Source: a virus. From it: DNA of 32,439 nt. Made by a program: the position numbers and the translations under genes. Positions 1,632-32,058 of this stretch are shown piece by piece. The DNA lies in IMG/VR virus record IMGVR_UViG_3300037337_000046, positions 1 to 32,439 of that record; one strand, 5' to 3'. The first letter of the stretch is position 1. Every line of letters starts with the position of its first letter. Under the pieces are notes generated by a model. That model did not search any database. It was given only the letters and a program-made list of their open reading frames with translations, and was not told where the DNA came from.

Positions 1632-1925
1632 ATGAAAATCACAGTAAACACAACACAGGAAAGGGAAATAGAAATCCCTAAGTTTTTCAGGATAGGGCGA
1701 TATTCTTACAAGCTAAGTAGCAATGAGAAGTATGTAACCGAGGTTACACCTTGGAAAGTCAGTGATGAATCGCTTGATTTGGGACTATTTCCTAGAATAC
1801 GAATTGATCTAATAAGATACGTATCGGGTATTGCATCACGCGAAATTATCCCTATTACAGAAAGAGAGTTTAATCAGGATCTTATGGATGTTCTTGTTGA
1901 GATGGAAAAATTGACTGAGCTATGA
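1632..1925 (+). CDS. Hypothetical protein, 97 aa
   Basis: Begins MKITVNTTQE; AGCGA sits one base before the ATG. The middle (FFRIGRYSYKLSSNEKYVTE) suggests a beta-rich fold, and the C-terminus is helical and acidic (DLMDVLVEMEKLTEL). No signal or membrane segment. Its stop overlaps the start of the ERF recombinase gene by 4 bases, so it probably belongs to the same recombination operon. Function unknown; an accessory role to recombination is inference from position only. Confidence 0.65.
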   Translation: MKITVNTTQEREIEIPKFFRIGRYSYKLSSNEKYVTEVTPWKVSDESLDLGLFPRIRIDLIRYVSGIASREIIPITEREFNQDLMDVLVEMEKLTEL

Positions 1926-2539
1926 AACTACTTGCAAAAGCAATAATAGAAGTAATGAAAACTGTTAAGTCTATCGACAAGGGAACGACTATAGGTAAGG
2001 GAGATTATGCGTATAAAGGAGTTGCCGACAAAGATGTTAAGCACGCCATAGGGCAAGCGATGCAGGATAACGGACTTTGCTTAATACCTACTTCGGTAGA
2101 TCAAACCGTGCAGGTGGATAGATGGCAGGAAGAGGAATACGGAAAACTAAAGAAAAAGCAATCGGTATTTACCGAGGTTAAAACTAAGTACTTGCTACTT
2201 CATGAGTCAGGAGAATCTATTGAGGTTGCCGGTTATGGTCAAGGTGTAGATTCTCAGGACAAGTCAGCTGGTAAGGCTACCACCTACGCCCTCAAATATG
2301 CGCTACTATACTTATTTATGGTTCCAACTGGCAACATTGATGACGCAGACAAGAGTCATTCTAATGATACCGCAGCACCCCCAAAAAAAGTAGCGGTGAA
2401 ACCTACACCGACTAAAGATCAGTTCAATGGGATTGTTGCATACCTTAAAGGTACAAGCGAGCAGAAAGAACAGGCTACTTCAGCATTAAATAAATACGCG
2501 CTAACAAAAGAACAAACCGAACAAATCAACAAACTATGA
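1922..2539 (+). CDS. erf: ERF-family single-strand DNA annealing protein
   Basis: This phage recombinase anneals complementary single strands, supporting recombination-dependent replication and genome circularisation. The ERF signature is clear: an N-terminal DYAYKGVADKDVKHAIGQAM (29-48) and the diagnostic GYGQGVDSQDKSAGKA (104-119), followed by TTYALKYALLYLF and a VPTG-x-IDDAD ending (135-143). After residue 145 comes a Pro/Lys linker and a helical tail that may bind SSB or DNA. The 205-residue length is normal for the family. It is coupled by 4-base overlaps to the gene before it and to the Gp157-like gene after it, a common pairing in phages. Confidence 0.9.
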   Translation: MKLLAKAIIEVMKTVKSIDKGTTIGKGDYAYKGVADKDVKHAIGQAMQDNGLCLIPTSVDQTVQVDRWQEEEYGKLKKKQSVFTEVKTKYLLLHESGESIEVAGYGQGVDSQDKSAGKATTYALKYALLYLFMVPTGNIDDADKSHSNDTAAPPKKVAVKPTPTKDQFNGIVAYLKGTSEQKEQATSALNKYALTKEQTEQINKL

Positions 2540-6689: not shown

Positions 6690-8119
6690 TCGAGCTAAGA
6701 CCGTACCAGCTAGAGGCAGTACAAAAAACTAGGGAAATGATCCTAGCAGGGAAGAAAAAGTTTGTGTTTTGCAGCCCCACGGGAAGCGGAAAAACTTTTA
6801 CCTTCTCCTTCATCGTCAAGAGCGCAATAGCGAAGGCTAAACGGGTTCTGATACTTACACACAGAACGGAGCTGTTAACACAGGCAGGGGGCGCGCTTGA
6901 GTCAATCGGGCTGCGTCCTACCAAGATTGAAGCAGGCAAAAGTATAGCCTATTTTTCGGGCCAACTTTACACAGCTATGATTGAGACAATTTCTCGAAGA
7001 ATGCAAAAGCTTGAGTACATTAATTTTGTTCAGTCCCTTGACTTGATAATTATAGATGAATGCCACTTCGGGAACTTCGACAAGTTCTTTTCTCAGATTT
7101 CAAAGAAAAGTGTAGTTATTGGTTTTACCGCAACGCCACACCGGGAAAAAAATCAGATTGCTTTGGATGAATTTTATGAGGGCATTATAGAGGTCGTATC
7201 TATTCCCGAATTAATTGAACAAGGTTACCTATCAAAGCCGCTCAGTTATGGCGTTAAATTAGACCTCAGTAGCGTTAAGATTAAGGGCAATGATTACGAC
7301 AATGATTCTTTAGGTTCGTTTATGACTGAGACAAAAGTTTACGAGGGCGTAATTGAGAATTACAAGAAGATCTGCGATAAAACCAAAGCGATTGCTTTTT
7401 GCGCAAATATCAAAAGCTCAATTAAATTGCGAGATGAAATGATTGAGTCGGGGCTGAATGCAAAACACCTAGACGCAGGATCTAACAAGAAAGAGCGCGC
7501 GGACTGTTTAGCATGGTTCAAAAATACACCGGACGCAATACTTTGCAATGTCGGGATATTGACAACTGGATTTAATGAACCTACAATTCAGACAATTATT
7601 CTATATCGGGCTACCAAGTCACTTCCTTTATTTCTTCAAATGGTCGGTAGAGGCAGCCGAATTATTAAGGGTATAAAAGAAACTTTCAATCTTTTGGATT
7701 TTGGTAATAATGTGAACGAGCATGGGTTTTGGGAAGACGAGCGCGCATGGAGCCTGAAAAAAAAGAAGAAAAAAGAAGGGGCTCCACCAATTAGGGATTG
7801 CAAAGAATGCGGTGCTCAATCCTATGCTAGTCTAAAGGTTTGCCCGATTTGCGGTTATGTTTTCCCTGTCTCAAATAAGCAAAAAGAGGAAGCGGAAATA
7901 GCATTTTTGCAATTATTAACTAAGCAGGAGCGCATGAGAAAAGCGAATAACGCTGGACTAGAGGAAAAATCCAGGATGGCAAAGGCTGGGTTAATTAGCC
8001 CGTATTGGGTGCTTCATAAATTGACAGACCGAAATGAAGCGTTGCAGTTCATTAATCTGATGGGATATAAAAAAGGATGGTTACACATAAATAAAGATAG
8101 ATTCGAATGTTTGAAATAA
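6686..8119 (+). CDS. Superfamily 2 DEAD-like helicase with C-terminal zinc ribbon
   Basis: 477 residues with all SF2 landmarks: a Q-like start ELRPYQLEAV (3-12), Walker A SPTGSGKT (30-37), motif Ia LTHRTELL (57-64), DECH (124-127), TATP (148-151), and motif VI QMVGRGSR (318-325) with a preceding TGFNEPTIQTIILYRAT. Residues 372-389 hold CKEC and CPIC pairs 11 residues apart, a zinc ribbon that probably binds DNA. The type is close to the ResIII/SSL2-like helicases phages use in replication or recombination. It follows the candidate origin and overlaps the VRR-NUC nuclease start by 13 bases, so helicase and nuclease probably work together. Confidence 0.88.
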   Translation: MIELRPYQLEAVQKTREMILAGKKKFVFCSPTGSGKTFTFSFIVKSAIAKAKRVLILTHRTELLTQAGGALESIGLRPTKIEAGKSIAYFSGQLYTAMIETISRRMQKLEYINFVQSLDLIIIDECHFGNFDKFFSQISKKSVVIGFTATPHREKNQIALDEFYEGIIEVVSIPELIEQGYLSKPLSYGVKLDLSSVKIKGNDYDNDSLGSFMTETKVYEGVIENYKKICDKTKAIAFCANIKSSIKLRDEMIESGLNAKHLDAGSNKKERADCLAWFKNTPDAILCNVGILTTGFNEPTIQTIILYRATKSLPLFLQMVGRGSRIIKGIKETFNLLDFGNNVNEHGFWEDERAWSLKKKKKKEGAPPIRDCKECGAQSYASLKVCPICGYVFPVSNKQKEEAEIAFLQLLTKQERMRKANNAGLEEKSRMAKAGLISPYWVLHKLTDRNEALQFINLMGYKKGWLHINKDRFECLK

Positions 8120-8445
8120 GCGAGGATAAACTGCAAAGCGATTGTTACCAATGGTTTCACGCTACCTATCCAGATCTGAGAGGTTTGCTATGCTACAATC
8201 TCAACAACTCAAAAAATAAGATTAGGGGAATGATGGACAAAGGTATGGGATTGCAACCGGGAAGATCCGATCTAGTTTTCTATTACAAGGGCGTTGCGTA
8301 TATGCTAGAAGTTAAGACCGAGAAAGGGACACAGCAGCCAAATCAAAAATTATGGGAGGCAAAAATAACTCAGGCAGGATTTAGTTATAAAATATTTCGA
8401 TCCAAAGAAGAATTTATTTCTATAATACTTGCAATTATTAAATAA
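8107..8445 (+). CDS. VRR-NUC domain nuclease
   Basis: A 112-residue single-domain nuclease of the PD-(D/E)XK superfamily. Catalytic features are visible in order: GMGLQPGRSDLVFYY (46-60) with Asp55, MLEVKTEKGTQQPNQ (66-80) with the Glu68-x-Lys70 pair, then AGFSYKIFRSKEEF. Stand-alone phage VRR-NUC proteins are thought to act as structure-specific or junction-resolving nucleases. It overlaps the helicase gene by 13 bases. Its last codons (LAIIK then stop) lie inside promoter repeat copy 3, so coding and promoter sequence are shared. Confidence 0.85.
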   Translation: MFEISEDKLQSDCYQWFHATYPDLRGLLCYNLNNSKNKIRGMMDKGMGLQPGRSDLVFYYKGVAYMLEVKTEKGTQQPNQKLWEAKITQAGFSYKIFRSKEEFISIILAIIK

Positions 8446-8460
8446 AATAGTTAATATTAC
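8429..8460 (+). promoter_or_regulatory. Promoter/operator repeat, copy 3
   Basis: TTG at 8429-8431 and TAATATTAC at 8452-8460 are 20 bases apart. The spacer CAATTATTAAATAAAATAGT is nearly that of copy 2. The left half encodes the last residues of the nuclease. It should drive the SSB-like gene at 8481. Confidence 0.6.
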
Positions 8461-8480
8461 AAACCAAACAATAAATAAAA

Positions 8481-11705: not shown

Positions 11706-12348
11706 AGACGTCACAGTATCCGAATTACTATCTATAGAGCAGCACACACCTCGACAAGTCATCACGGCACTAAGCAGCCTAACGGCTAGGCAGGTAAATA
11801 TATTAACGAGCGATGAGGTATTGATTCTTTACGAGGTGGTTAGCTTTATAGACGACTTGAATGAGGTAGGTGCAGTTTTGCCGCTTGATTTTACAGCTCC
11901 TAAAATAGACGTTGCTGGATCAACTTTTGAGAAGTGCGAACGGGCTAAGATTAAGGCATCCGAAAACAAAGCTCCTTACAGATTATTTTTAGACTTGGTT
12001 GAAATCTACTTTCCAGATCAATATTTGACAGGCTTAGCGGCTCCAGCACTTGCGATTGGTGCGCTGATTTATGAGGATCTTTGTATTTTGCTAGACAGAT
12101 TCAAAGACCTTGCAAGCGAAAAACCTACTGAAGAAGAAGAAGAAGCGGGGGTCAGTGCCTTACATACTTTTGGGTCTTACGGGATTTGCGAGTCAATAGC
12201 AAGCAGATATAGCGTTAGACCTTACGAAGTATTTTCTTGGACTGCTGAAGAGGTGTATTTAGAACTAACTTATCAAATGGCAAAGAGCAGGTATCAGGAT
12301 AATCTCCGGGCGATTGAGAAAAGAAAAACTTTAGGGTCTAATCGGTAA
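11653..12348 (+). CDS. Unknown protein, 231 aa, with chaperone-like C-terminus
   Basis: Starts inside the terminase gene; no better start is seen downstream. Three parts are visible: a helical N-domain (VTVSELLSIEQHTPRQVITA), a middle with an Ala-rich helix (PALAIGALIYEDLCILLDRF), a Glu-only run near residue 157-161, then GICESIASRYSVRPYEVFSW and EEVYLELTYQMAKSRYQDNL. That ending has the form 'IAxxYxxxPxEVxxWxxxEVxxxLxYxxAKxxY', which resembles tail assembly chaperones or head-tail proteins that track the tape measure. The alternative is an unknown packaging accessory factor. No frameshift product is evident. Confidence 0.65.
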   Translation: MGESNLLQRKNFIRTSFRDVTVSELLSIEQHTPRQVITALSSLTARQVNILTSDEVLILYEVVSFIDDLNEVGAVLPLDFTAPKIDVAGSTFEKCERAKIKASENKAPYRLFLDLVEIYFPDQYLTGLAAPALAIGALIYEDLCILLDRFKDLASEKPTEEEEEAGVSALHTFGSYGICESIASRYSVRPYEVFSWTAEEVYLELTYQMAKSRYQDNLRAIEKRKTLGSNR

Positions 12349-12350
12349 TA

Positions 12351-12378
12351 TTAACTTTTTTGTTTATATTTGAGTTAA
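12351..12378 (+). promoter_or_regulatory. Promoter of the 12397 moron gene, with inverted repeat
   Basis: A perfect TATATTTG -7 box lies at 12365-12372, flanked by TTAACT (12351-12356) and its inverse AGTTAA (12373-12378), which could be an operator. Downstream, ACTAAAATAAAGAGCGATT leads to the ATG. The same leader, with an identical TATATTTG, precedes the leftward gene at 20047. No TTG box is seen at -33. Confidence 0.65.
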
Positions 12379-12396
12379 CTAAAATAAAGAGCGATT

Positions 12397-12714
12397 ATGA
12401 AAACATACGCAGAAACACAGGGACAAGAATCATTTGACTGGAATAAGTTTTTAGAAAATCCGCCTAAAAAAGGATCGCCAGAACATCTTGACGCTTGTGA
12501 CTTAGCTGAAGCATGGATAACTTGCGCGTGCGGCAACCTTTGCGATATTATACCTAGGTGTCCACTGAGGGGGCGTCCAATTGACGATTATTTAGAACGT
12601 CTAGGTATATCTTTTAATAATAACATACAAGACGCTAGATATGATTGTGCTAAAGAAATACTAGCCGGAATAGAAAATCGATCAGCAGAGATAATATTTG
12701 AACTAACAAAATGA
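12397..12714 (+). CDS. Cysteine-motif moron protein, 105 aa
   Basis: Begins MKTYAETQGQESFDWNKFLE. A central Cys-rich motif, DLAEAWITCACGNLCDIIPR, contains Cys43, Cys45, Cys49 and then Cys55, enough for a metal site. The C-terminal half is helical (DYLERLGISFNNNIQDARYD, and KEILAGIENRSAEIIFEL). The CACGNxC core resembles a widespread family of uncharacterised bacterial and phage proteins. It has its own promoter and its own terminator, sits between packaging and tail genes on the same strand, and so is a self-contained moron that could be expressed in a lysogen. Function unknown. Confidence 0.75.
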   Translation: MKTYAETQGQESFDWNKFLENPPKKGSPEHLDACDLAEAWITCACGNLCDIIPRCPLRGRPIDDYLERLGISFNNNIQDARYDCAKEILAGIENRSAEIIFELTK

Positions 12715-12718
12715 ACCA

Positions 12719-12751
12719 AATCCCTCCGAGAAATTAGAGGGATTTTTTTTT
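12719..12751 (+). terminator. Intrinsic terminator after the 12397 gene
   Basis: AATCCCTC (12719-12726) and GAGGGATT (12737-12744) form an 8-bp stem with a 10-base loop, followed by a T-run. It starts a few bases after the TGA stop and ends the moron transcript. Confidence 0.85.
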
Positions 12752-12786
12752 AGTCCTATCGGTAACAAAATTATCTGTAAAACATC

Positions 12787-19733: not shown

Positions 19734-19739
19734 AAAAAT

Positions 19740-19822
19740 AGGGGGTGGAGGAGTCGAATCTGATTGTCTCATTTCTAAATTACCACAGGCGAGACGTCTA
19801 TTACGTACCTTTTTTAGCCCCT
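19740..19822 (-). other. Structured convergent spacer, tRNA-like but not a valid tRNA
   Basis: Between the ends of two convergent genes. AGGGGGT (19740-19746) and AGCCCCT (19816-19822) can pair with one mismatch, and an inner stem GTCTC (19766-19770) with GAGAC (19791-19795) is perfect. Read on the - strand, TTCGACT sits where a T-loop would be, and the total length (83) suits a tRNA. However, T-stem pairing is poor and no anticodon arm can be drawn, so this is at best a decayed tRNA or a bidirectional terminator structure. A six-T run at 19810-19815 would serve the rightward transcript. Confidence 0.35.
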
Positions 19823-19834
19823 AAATTTTATTGT

Positions 19835-20047
19835 TTACTTCCTATTTTTTATTATTTCCTCTAAATCTTCAATGCTCAATGATTCATAATCAAGGTATTT
19901 TTCTATTGTATTTGCATCCATTTTTAGCGTAACTGTAATTGAAGCTTTAAAATCAACATTAGGAAGGTGTGATGTTCCGCTAAGACCTTCTACTCCGGTA
20001 ATTTGTATTTTATATGATTCCGTATTATTTAATTGTATGCATTTCAT
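19835..20047 (-). CDS. Leftward moron protein, 70 aa
   Basis: Reads leftward from ATG 20047, beginning MKCIQLNNTESYKIQITGVE and ending IEDLEEIIKNRK. Beta-rich middle (FKASITVTLKMDANTIEKYL), then an acidic helix. No signal or membrane segment. What makes it convincing is its control region: a perfect TATATTTG box at 20073-20080 on the same strand and a leader ACTAAAATAAAGAGCGATT identical to that of the rightward gene at 12397. It is the third gene of a leftward cassette inside late rightward genes, typical of morons. Family unknown. Confidence 0.7.
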   Translation of the reverse strand: MKCIQLNNTESYKIQITGVEGLSGTSHLPNVDFKASITVTLKMDANTIEKYLDYESLSIEDLEEIIKNRK

Positions 20048-20072
20048 AATCGCTCTTTATTTTAGTGAATCC

Positions 20073-20080
20073 AAATATAA
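20073..20080 (-). promoter_or_regulatory. Leftward promoter, twin of the 12365 promoter
   Basis: On the - strand the sequence reads TATATTTG, exactly the Bacteroidota -7 consensus, seven bases downstream of the stop of the small membrane protein gene. From about 7 bases after the box, the leader to the ATG is identical to that at 12378-12396. No -33 TTG is seen, as at the twin. Confidence 0.65.
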
Positions 20081-20086
20081 CCTTTT

Positions 20087-20239
20087 TATTTATTTCTCTG
20101 GCATCCAGCTTAGAACCTTATCAGAATAATCTTTTCCAGTTACTAAAAAAACAGTGATAAAGAAGGGCAAACAGATAATGAAAACGATTAAGGAGAAAAG
20201 CACCGCGATAACTGCTAAAAGTCTTTGTAGGTATATCAT
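20087..20239 (-). CDS. Small membrane protein, 50 aa
   Basis: Reads leftward from ATG 20239; its start overlaps the stop of the RHH gene by 4 bases (ATGA). The product begins MIYLQRLLAVIAVLFSLIVF and continues IICLPFFITVFLVTG, one long hydrophobic stretch of nearly 30 residues that could be one tilted helix or a hairpin, followed by a short polar tail KDYSDKVLSW. A tiny membrane protein coupled to a DNA-binding protein, on the opposite strand to the virion genes, could be a superinfection-exclusion factor or a toxin; neither is shown. Confidence 0.6.
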
Positions 20240-20376
20240 GAGTTTAGGTATTTATGTATCAATGTTTTTAAAATATTAGTTTGCGTCTTATTCTCTTGCT
20301 TGACCTTAGCCAAAAAGTTAGCCTTGAGTTCTTTTGAGATATGTACTTTGATTTGATCGAGATCACCTTTTGGCAT
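20236..20376 (-). CDS. Ribbon-helix-helix DNA-binding protein, 46 aa
   Basis: Leftward from ATG 20376 to TGA at 20238-20236. The product MPKGDLDQIKVHISKELKAN then a helix with KQENKTQTNILKTLIHKYL fits the Arc/CopG fold: a beta ribbon (QIKVHIS), helix A (KELKANFLAKVKQEN) and helix B (TQTNILKTLIHKYL). It probably dimerises and represses its own operon, as RHH antitoxins or phage Arc-like proteins do. It is coupled to the small membrane protein gene. Its 5' end lies opposite the region just upstream of the protease gene, so it may also affect that promoter. Confidence 0.65.
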   Translation of the reverse strand: MPKGDLDQIKVHISKELKANFLAKVKQENKTQTNILKTLIHKYLNS

Positions 20377-20444
20377 ATCACTTTAATTATTTTGGGGAAT
20401 TTACAAAGATTTATTTGGATAGTGTAATTAAATTAGTAGCGAAA

Positions 20445-21623
20445 ATGAAGACACTTAACATTGAGGGTATAATTAGCAGCAAAGCCGACGCGGAATATTT
20501 TGCTGAAGGTGAAAAATACTTCAGCTATGATGATTTAGAGGACTTCATTTCTAATAATTACGGTGAACCTTTTGAAGCAGTAATCAAAAGTCCAGGTGGT
20601 TCGGTTGAGGAAGGATTCAGGATCTACGATAAGCTCAAATCTTTGCAGGTTACAACCGTTGCAATCGTGGCCAACAGCATAGCTTCAGTGATTTTCTTAG
20701 CCGGTAAGGTTCGTAAGGTTACAGAAAACACAGAAATGATTATTCATAACGCGTGGGTTGCCGCTGAATCACTTTCAGGCGAAAAGCTAAATGTTCACAG
20801 CTTAGCCGCCTTGACAGAGCTTTTTGCCGCTACTGATATGCAAATCTTGAATGTATATACCCAGATCGCAGGAGATGCAAAGGCTACTAAGCTATTAGCA
20901 CTAATGGGCAAAGAATCACGGCTAGACTCAAAAATGGCTTTAGACTTTGGTTTTGCTACTGAGCTAGTCGATAACACTTATTCTGCTATTAGCTTCAAAA
21001 ACAAGGTATTGACTTTTAGCAGGAATCAAATTGAAATTTTAACCGATGAAAATATGAAAACAGAAGAGAAAATCACAGCCTTTGAAAAGGCGATGAACGC
21101 TATGAAGAACATCTTTAAAGTGCAGATGCGGAACATGGTGATGACAACCGACGCAGGCGTTTCCATTTTTATCGAGGGCGAAGGCGATATGTTTGGCAAA
21201 ACGGTCTACATCGCAGAAGACGGACTTCCAACTGAAACACTAGCACCGGCAGGCCCGCACTCATTTGCAGATGGATCTAGTGTGGTACTTGACGAGTCAG
21301 GCGTAGTAATCGAAGTATTACCAGCCTCAGCACCAGCCGCAAAAACGGAAGAACTAGAAGCTACTATCGCAGCAATGGAAGATGACAAGATGAAAGATCA
21401 GGCGAGCATAGTCGCTTTGAATGCAAAAGTGGCAGCTCAGGCGAAAGTAATCGCAGACGGCAATACAAAGCTAACAAAGTTGGCAGTTGATTTTAAGGAC
21501 TTGAAAAACATGGTGAACGGTGATCCTGACACTAAGAAGAAAAATGCAGTTATTCCAGCAGCGGACTTCGCGAAATTATCGTTTTCTGAGCAGATCAGAC
21601 AGCGAGCAATGAATAAAGTTTAA
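20445..21623 (+). CDS. ClpP-like head maturation protease fused to scaffold, about 392 aa
   Basis: I choose ATG 20445; a TTG at 20370 in frame would overlap the leftward RHH gene. With this start, the ClpP-type protease fold covers about 1-180: SPGGSV (49-54), catalytic Ser81 in NSIASVIFLAG, His101 in MIIHNAWV, and a likely Asp161 in SRLDSKMALDFG. The middle (about 220-300) is a beta-rich insert (DMFGKTVYIAEDGLPTETLA). The C-terminal 90 residues are coiled-coil scaffold-like (ALNAKVAAQAKVIADGNTKL). Such fusions build the prohead and then digest the scaffold. The major capsid gene follows 21 bases later, as usual. Confidence 0.85.
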   Translation: MKTLNIEGIISSKADAEYFAEGEKYFSYDDLEDFISNNYGEPFEAVIKSPGGSVEEGFRIYDKLKSLQVTTVAIVANSIASVIFLAGKVRKVTENTEMIIHNAWVAAESLSGEKLNVHSLAALTELFAATDMQILNVYTQIAGDAKATKLLALMGKESRLDSKMALDFGFATELVDNTYSAISFKNKVLTFSRNQIEILTDENMKTEEKITAFEKAMNAMKNIFKVQMRNMVMTTDAGVSIFIEGEGDMFGKTVYIAEDGLPTETLAPAGPHSFADGSSVVLDESGVVIEVLPASAPAAKTEELEATIAAMEDDKMKDQASIVALNAKVAAQAKVIADGNTKLTKLAVDFKDLKNMVNGDPDTKKKNAVIPAADFAKLSFSEQIRQRAMNKV

Positions 21624-31497: not shown

Positions 31498-31982
31498 AAT
31501 ACCTCTTACTATTCCTAATCCTTTGCAGCTCTTGTAGGAGCGTAAAAAAGGACCTAAGCAAGTCAAGCGAAAACGTAACTGAAAAAAATACTGAGCAAAT
31601 CACAGAAACCGTAAAAGAAAAGACTGCTGTAAAATCTGTGTCTGAGCTAAAAAAAGCATCTGAGTCACTGGAGATTTCAGGAATGAAAATTTACCCTAAA
31701 GGCGTTTTCGTTATTGATTTGTCCGGTACTTTTACGGGGGAAGCTGATTCGGTTGTGCAGGTCAAAAATAAGGCTGTTATAGATGTTTACAACGAAAGTA
31801 ATGTAATTACACAGCTTAAGGAGTTGGAGGCTAAGAAGCACACTAAAAATGATTCTGAAAGGATTACAAGTAAAGAAGTCTTTGAGAAAAAAGTAGAGCG
31901 AAAGCCTAATACCGTATTGGGTATTTTTTTAGTTGTGATCGCTTTGGGGGTTGGCTGGTTTTTTTATTGGAAAAATAAATGA
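31494..31982 (+). CDS. Unimolecular spanin (u-spanin), 162 aa
   Basis: An N-terminal lipoprotein signal (MKYLLLFLILCSSC, acylation at Cys14) and a C-terminal membrane segment (TVLGIFLVVIALGVGWFFYW, about 140-159) bracket a charged, helical and beta-rich periplasmic part. This is the layout of the T1 gp11-type u-spanin: outer-membrane lipid anchor and inner-membrane helix in one protein, joining the two membranes for fusion. The last residues KNK are cytoplasmic. It follows the endolysin with ATGA overlap, exactly where a spanin is expected. It is also direct evidence for a Gram-negative host. Confidence 0.8.
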   Translation: MKYLLLFLILCSSCRSVKKDLSKSSENVTEKNTEQITETVKEKTAVKSVSELKKASESLEISGMKIYPKGVFVIDLSGTFTGEADSVVQVKNKAVIDVYNESNVITQLKELEAKKHTKNDSERITSKEVFEKKVERKPNTVLGIFLVVIALGVGWFFYWKNK

Positions 31983-31991
31983 TCTTATGTT

Positions 31992-32021
31992 TTGCATTAT
32001 TAAATAAATTGTTTAATTTTA
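31992..32021 (+). promoter_or_regulatory. Promoter/operator repeat, copy 4
   Basis: TTG at 31992-31994 and TAATTTTA at 32014-32021 are 19 bases apart; the -7 box is the closest of the four copies to TAnnTTTG. The spacer ATTAAATAAATTGTTTAAT is the same as in copy 1. It begins ten bases after the spanin stop and drives the gene at 32059. Confidence 0.65.
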
Positions 32022-32058
32022 TGGTATAGCAATTCAGCTATCCAAAACCAAAAGCGAT

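Follow-up and report, generated by a model that had tools for sequence, protein, structure and literature searches.

How two unrelated genes on opposite strands of a phage genome come to be preceded by the same leader is the question raised by the DNA analysed here (the window), an IMG/VR virus record of 32,439 bases that encodes a terminase, a portal, a capsid protease, a VapE-type primase, a lysozyme and an Erf-like annealing protein. The window contains two exact copies of the 25-mer ACTAAAATAAAGAGCGATTATGAAA, at 12378-12402 (+) and 20042-20066 (-), which run into the starts of gene A (105 aa; 12397..12714, +) and gene B (70 aa; 19835..20047, -). No further match is found in the window at up to 3 mismatches, and there are no matches in 100 shuffles. 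An earlier note on this DNA had reported 25 identical bases at genes starting at 12397 (+) and 20047 (-), with unrelated coding sequences; the starts and the identity are right, and comparison of the proteins agrees that they are unrelated. The distance between the two copies, put there at about 8 kb, is 7.6 kb.

The alignment around the 25-mer extends to 39 nt at 92% identity (12364-12402 / 20042-20080), and this longer match takes in a box, TATATTTG, that precedes both copies (12365..12372, +; 20072..20079, -) at a distance of exactly 24 nt from the ATG. The 5 nt that separate box and 25-mer are unlike (AGTTA versus GATTC), and upstream of the box the two copies are again not alike, falling into two types: type 1 (TAATATTAACTTTTTTGTT) at gene A, 12346..12364 (+), and type 2 (AAATAAATAAAAAGGT) at gene B, 20080..20098 (-). 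Downstream of the box, comparison of leader copies delimits a conserved block, ACTAAAATAAAGAGCGATT, at 12378..12396 (+) and 20048..20066 (-).

The nature of the box is suggested by work on Flavobacterium. In the primary promoter of Flavobacterium johnsoniae, a -7 element, TAHHTTTG, stands 4-5 nt ahead of the transcription start, and there is little -33 signal (PMC6847099); the same box is found in F. psychrophilum (PMC9723704). At both sites TATATTTG fits TAHHTTTG, a consensus that comes from Flavobacterium. Of the window starts, 46 were tested (43 +, 3 -), and a box of this kind within 60 nt upstream is confined to those of genes A and B. No clear -33 element accompanies the leaders, although this signal is weak in the F. 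johnsoniae promoters too. From this resemblance we infer promoter activity for the leader boxes. With the 4-5 nt spacing of the Flavobacterium promoters, transcription is predicted to start at about the first base of the conserved block, so that the block would constitute the whole 5'UTR, 19-20 nt long. It has an A at -3, in the commonest spacing, and an A-rich stretch at about -11 to -16, both of which are typical of Shine-Dalgarno-free initiation in Bacteroidota (PMC9723704, PMC6847099). However, the Flavobacterium regions favour A at -6, whereas the phage leader has G, and no description of a sequence-specific AGCGA core was found in either of these papers.

With an A-rich leader and a TAHHTTTG box both common throughout the phylum, the shared sequence might be thought a generic host consensus or a product of chance. 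This reading is extremely improbable, because a search of 395 sampled Bacteroidia genomes for the full leader, with up to 3 mismatches allowed, gave nothing, and because the leader does not arise in the shuffles and is restricted to one phage clade. A generic host leader, which the earlier note had itself named as the outcome that would undo its proposal, was thus looked for and rejected. An exact 18-mer does have 16 matches in genome contigs, but these lie in unrelated phyla or lack any leader-like context at a gene start, and look like chance. The 18-mer matches L004-L007, L009, L010, L012 and L015-L031 were likewise discarded as leaders, having no box and mostly tiny reading frames or none.

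The leader is instead found among related phages. Scans of IMG/VR with the leader, the slot neighbours and genes A, B and C yielded about 15 related contigs. Five gene families with no relation to one another stand behind the leader in these uncultured phages, which carry it in about 20 distinct copies: family A (105 aa, as at window 12397), family B (70 aa, as at window 20047), family C (76-80 aa, MKTFRLEF), family D (56 aa, membrane-like) and family E (106-115 aa, DUF551). The AGCGA that ends the 5'UTR is invariant across all of these copies. In one contig, L055, three leader copies are accompanied by the promoter region, as such or in a variant form, and one further copy is internal; internal copies, which also occur in L008, L034, L036 and L048, are without a -7 box. 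The leader of gene B in L034 differs from that in the window by several bases and one indel, indicating that a strict leader sequence is not required. A family C gene in L034 lies between direct repeats of AGAGCGATTATGAAAACAT, and the repeats around the C genes of L034 and L036 contain the 3' end of the leader.

Type 1 upstream halves accompany families A, C and D, and type 2 halves accompany A and B, which argues that promoter half and gene have been reassorted around the leader. One reading of the earlier note, which had the control region either moved as a unit or duplicated and both genes expressed together, is that a single promoter-leader unit was duplicated inside this phage and drives the two genes as one regulon. 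The identical 25-mer and the identical spacing from box to ATG are what such a duplication would leave, but the upstream halves differ, the half at gene B is resident in relatives that have no gene B, and the B leader of the window (GATTCACT...) resembles the A leaders of other phages (L033) no less than it resembles the window's own A leader (AGTTAACT...). Duplication within the phage is therefore rather improbable.

How the genes arrive and depart can be seen at the two sites themselves. The window from 12346 to 12754 matches L011 over 409 nt at 99.5% identity, from the upstream promoter half to the T-run of a terminator, and the flanks are unrelated; in L011 the same cassette sits between a 253-aa gene and the capsid protease of another head module. 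The left boundary of this match is the left end of the type 1 half, which is conserved in slot-A copies, and its right end falls just past a predicted intrinsic terminator (hairpin plus T-run, 12718..12752, +; fold -12.2 kcal/mol, z -3.5). In L037 and L038 nothing occupies the orthologous slot A, which in other relatives holds A, A-A, C-A, or C-A plus a 141-aa gene. At slot B, leader and gene B are present in the window and in L034, the only two phages in which gene B was found (the L034/L042/L050 matches being one contig), and both are missing from L039, L040 and L041. These three phages have the type 2 half and the box, and there TATATTTG runs directly into TAACATTAAATTTAGGGGC. Since the box is present in relatives without the gene, the simplest reading is that leader and gene B were joined behind a resident box; loss of leader and gene from the three relatives is a possible alternative. 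The nearest T-run to gene B is part of an adjacent RNA element.

The claim that the control region moved as a unit thus holds for cassette A, with its 409-nt match between unrelated flanks, and both loci do carry accessory genes that relatives can lack. It does not hold for an identical promoter, since what the two sites have in common is limited to the -7 box and the 5'UTR, nor for slot B, where relatives without gene B have the box as well. The matching copies are part of a swappable gene-cassette system, and not an isolated coincidence.

Taken together, five gene families behind one leader, their presence or absence in orthologous slots, and a whole cassette common to phages with different head modules argue that genes A and B belong to mobile moron cassettes of one Bacteroidota-type phage clade. 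On the explanation that we consider likely, these cassettes are transcribed by the host and share a clade-specific, start-associated 5'UTR with an AGCGA core, which doubles as a recombination seam. Each cassette would consist of a sigma-A type -7 box (TATATTTG/A), the conserved 19-20 nt 5'UTR ending in AGCGA and 1-4 nt before the ATG, and one to three small genes, with the slot-A cassette closed by its intrinsic terminator. Transcription of each cassette, by the host's RNA polymerase, would not depend on the phage operons, and in place of a Shine-Dalgarno sequence the conserved 5'UTR would determine where translation begins. With one box and 5'UTR in front of unrelated genes, the two could also serve as a seam of 25-50 bp at which one gene replaces another, further genes join in tandem, or a gene comes to lie behind a promoter already in place. 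The exchange would plausibly be carried out by the phage's own Erf-like single-strand annealing protein (1922..2539, +; PHROG 155, E 5e-25). Promoter activity, timing, translational role and recombination mechanism are the parts of this scheme that we infer. Co-expression of genes A and B at a time outside the late programme, as the earlier note had it, is plausible only, given that each has its own sigma-A type box, that B lies on the opposite strand and that A has its own terminator.

Whether the leader does anything beyond providing a seam depends on why it is conserved. Across 11 copies of gene A with the full leader, identity is 92% in a 17-nt core of the 5'UTR and 94% in the box, and falls to 61% in the 5 nt between them and to 46% in the 40 nt further upstream. 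At four-fold sites of gene A, identity is 57%, and 49% for pairs below 70% protein identity. Conservation of the leader is well above that of neutral sites, and the leader has thus been kept by selection or by repeated homogenisation. The second of these forms a rival explanation, in which the cassettes are young and frequent recombination (gene conversion) homogenises a leader with no job in translation. The cassette junctions do fall at the leader, on either side of which two promoter types and five gene families occur in changing combinations, and tandem gene A copies together with direct repeats indicate that recombination is frequent. Yet the conserved block spans precisely the interval from predicted transcript start to ATG while the 5 nt just before it vary, and AGCGA is found before phage genes outside the cassettes as well. 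A purely passive seam is therefore possible, and less probable than one that also takes part in initiation.

The occurrence of AGCGA elsewhere bears on that part. It stands before 5 of 47 other window starts versus 0.47 expected (p about 1e-4, for starts from a simple ORF picker and a motif noticed by eye beforehand). In these non-cassette genes it lies 1-5 nt upstream of the ATG (starts at 264, 1632, 9106, 20445 and 32059, with 1359 added by eye). It is not enriched at starts in 20 sampled Bacteroidia stretches (1/242), in distant relatives (0/74) or in phages with far homologues of gene A (2/433). Its presence before non-cassette starts would be in favour of a role of the leader in initiation. 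The stronger proposal, that AGCGA next to the ATG is a sequence-specific start signal read by the host ribosome or by a phage factor, is a speculative one that we hold to be improbable. If it were true, the cassettes would carry a portable initiation module by which a captured gene is expressed at once in the phage's own translational mode, and the signal would operate in hosts of a phylum in which ribosomes disregard Shine-Dalgarno sequences.

The invariance of AGCGA could also mean that the leader binds a regulator of the phage, be it a protein or a small RNA, by which the accessory genes are turned on or off together, and the type 1 upstream half does resemble, in reverse, an early-region repeat at 1104-1131 (28 nt, 93%). 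This is an unlikely reading: no regulator has been identified, A-rich content is typical of Bacteroidota initiation regions, and a test for inverted-repeat half-sites gave 3 sites among the window's early repeats and none in the type 1 promoter. An inverted-repeat operator common to the type 1 promoter and the early repeats was set aside, there being no half-site pair in the promoter, and is kept only as a lead.

The early-region element, TTGCAATTATTAAATAAANTNGTTTAATATTACA, precedes phage genes at 172-221, 1084-1133, 8412-8461 and 31974-32023 (all +) and is partly an inverted repeat (3 sites versus 0.2 in shuffles), making it a candidate phage promoter or operator. A gene for a Cro/C1-like HTH protein (852-1100, weak Pfam match) lies beside its second copy.

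Among known systems, the proposed cassettes are closest to phage morons and to the start-associated sequences (SAS/ESAS) of cluster K mycobacteriophages. Like morons, they are additional genes at places where relatives have the two neighbouring genes side by side (slot A of L037 and L038, slot B of L039-L041), have promoter-like sequences of their own (the -7 boxes of A and B) and a terminator (A), and can pass between phages as a unit (cassette A). They differ from morons in the single 5'UTR common to five families of unrelated genes and, for cassette B, in a -7 box that is found even where relatives have no gene B. The SAS is a 13-bp sequence, GGGATAGGAGCCC (PMC3203893), and like the present leader it is a short asymmetric repeat, conserved among related phages, that lies just upstream of start codons in different gene families. 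The leader differs from it in being A-rich with AGCGA, in having no Shine-Dalgarno sequence, in its tie to a -7 box and in the gain and loss of genes seen at the same sites (PMC3203893 for the SAS), and none of the leader copies contains the SAS consensus. By its sequence the leader is not a member of the SAS, although it appears to work like both morons and SAS. In T4-type phages, PeSL regulatory cassettes pair an early phage promoter with a hairpin and may help to shuffle small genes. They are alike in linking a repeated regulatory sequence to such shuffling; in PeSL the hairpin lies by the promoter, whereas here the conserved part is downstream of the box, and inspection by eye noted no stem-loop upstream of either box. 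In the literature searched, which was covered in part and so gives weak evidence of novelty, no case was found in which Bacteroidota phages place one complete conserved 5'UTR before accessory genes of unrelated kinds and use it as the seam of their cassettes.

It is of practical interest how phages can acquire and shed small accessory genes and yet have them expressed. In the present phages the junctions can be read base by base, with one cassette that has identical ends in two phages of different head modules, with empty and filled sites, and with a leader reused by five families. The leader can serve as a marker for accessory genes in uncultured Bacteroidota phages and allows a direct test of whether a non-Shine-Dalgarno 5'UTR motif guides initiation in this phylum.

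Of the cargo genes, gene A belongs to a widespread accessory phage family (WVTCACGN..CxxIPR) with no Pfam or PHROG family, and its model, confident and helical (pLDDT 84.5), has no structural match in PDB or BFVD; the model of gene B is poor (pLDDT 47.9). Neither gene has a relative among named phages, and gene A has a single borderline match, with stops, in the 395 Bacteroidia genomes. Homologues of gene A (29-47% identity) occur without the leader in many other phages (L063-L089), some larger than 150 kb. A single slot or genome can also contain several paralogues of gene A, adjacent or repeated (L033:3353-3978, L048, L059), pointing to tandem duplication or repeated capture. Relatives of the capsid protein (35-36%) are found in 5 of the 395 Bacteroidia genomes, which would fit a Bacteroidota host. 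The window has no tRNA or Rfam family, and no integrase was seen among the part of its proteins that was searched.

The structured-RNA-like element that adjoins gene B (19738-19826, -) reads ATTTAGGGGCTAAAAAAGG...GATTCGACTCCTCCACCCCCTAT and then a T-run. Over four distinct, close sequences, three of its pairs change on both sides and none is broken, and one covarying pair lies in a helix that would form a pseudoknot; it has no Rfam or tRNA match. Relatives without gene B have it immediately after the -7 box, so that it may be the gene of a small RNA, a reading kept tentative by the few and close sequences. In L039, at about 6965-7110 (-), a second type 2 upstream half with TATATATTTG and then a short hairpin element are found behind the RNA element. 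Upstream of gene B lie two minus-strand genes that are conserved in relatives with or without it, one for a 49-aa membrane-like protein (20090-20239) and the other for a 46-aa possible ribbon-helix-helix protein (20236-20376; Pfam match below cut-off). The homologue of the window's protease gene (20370-21623) is matched in two pieces, 340-400 nt apart, in L034 (12236-13888), L045 and L046, indicating an insertion relative to the window.
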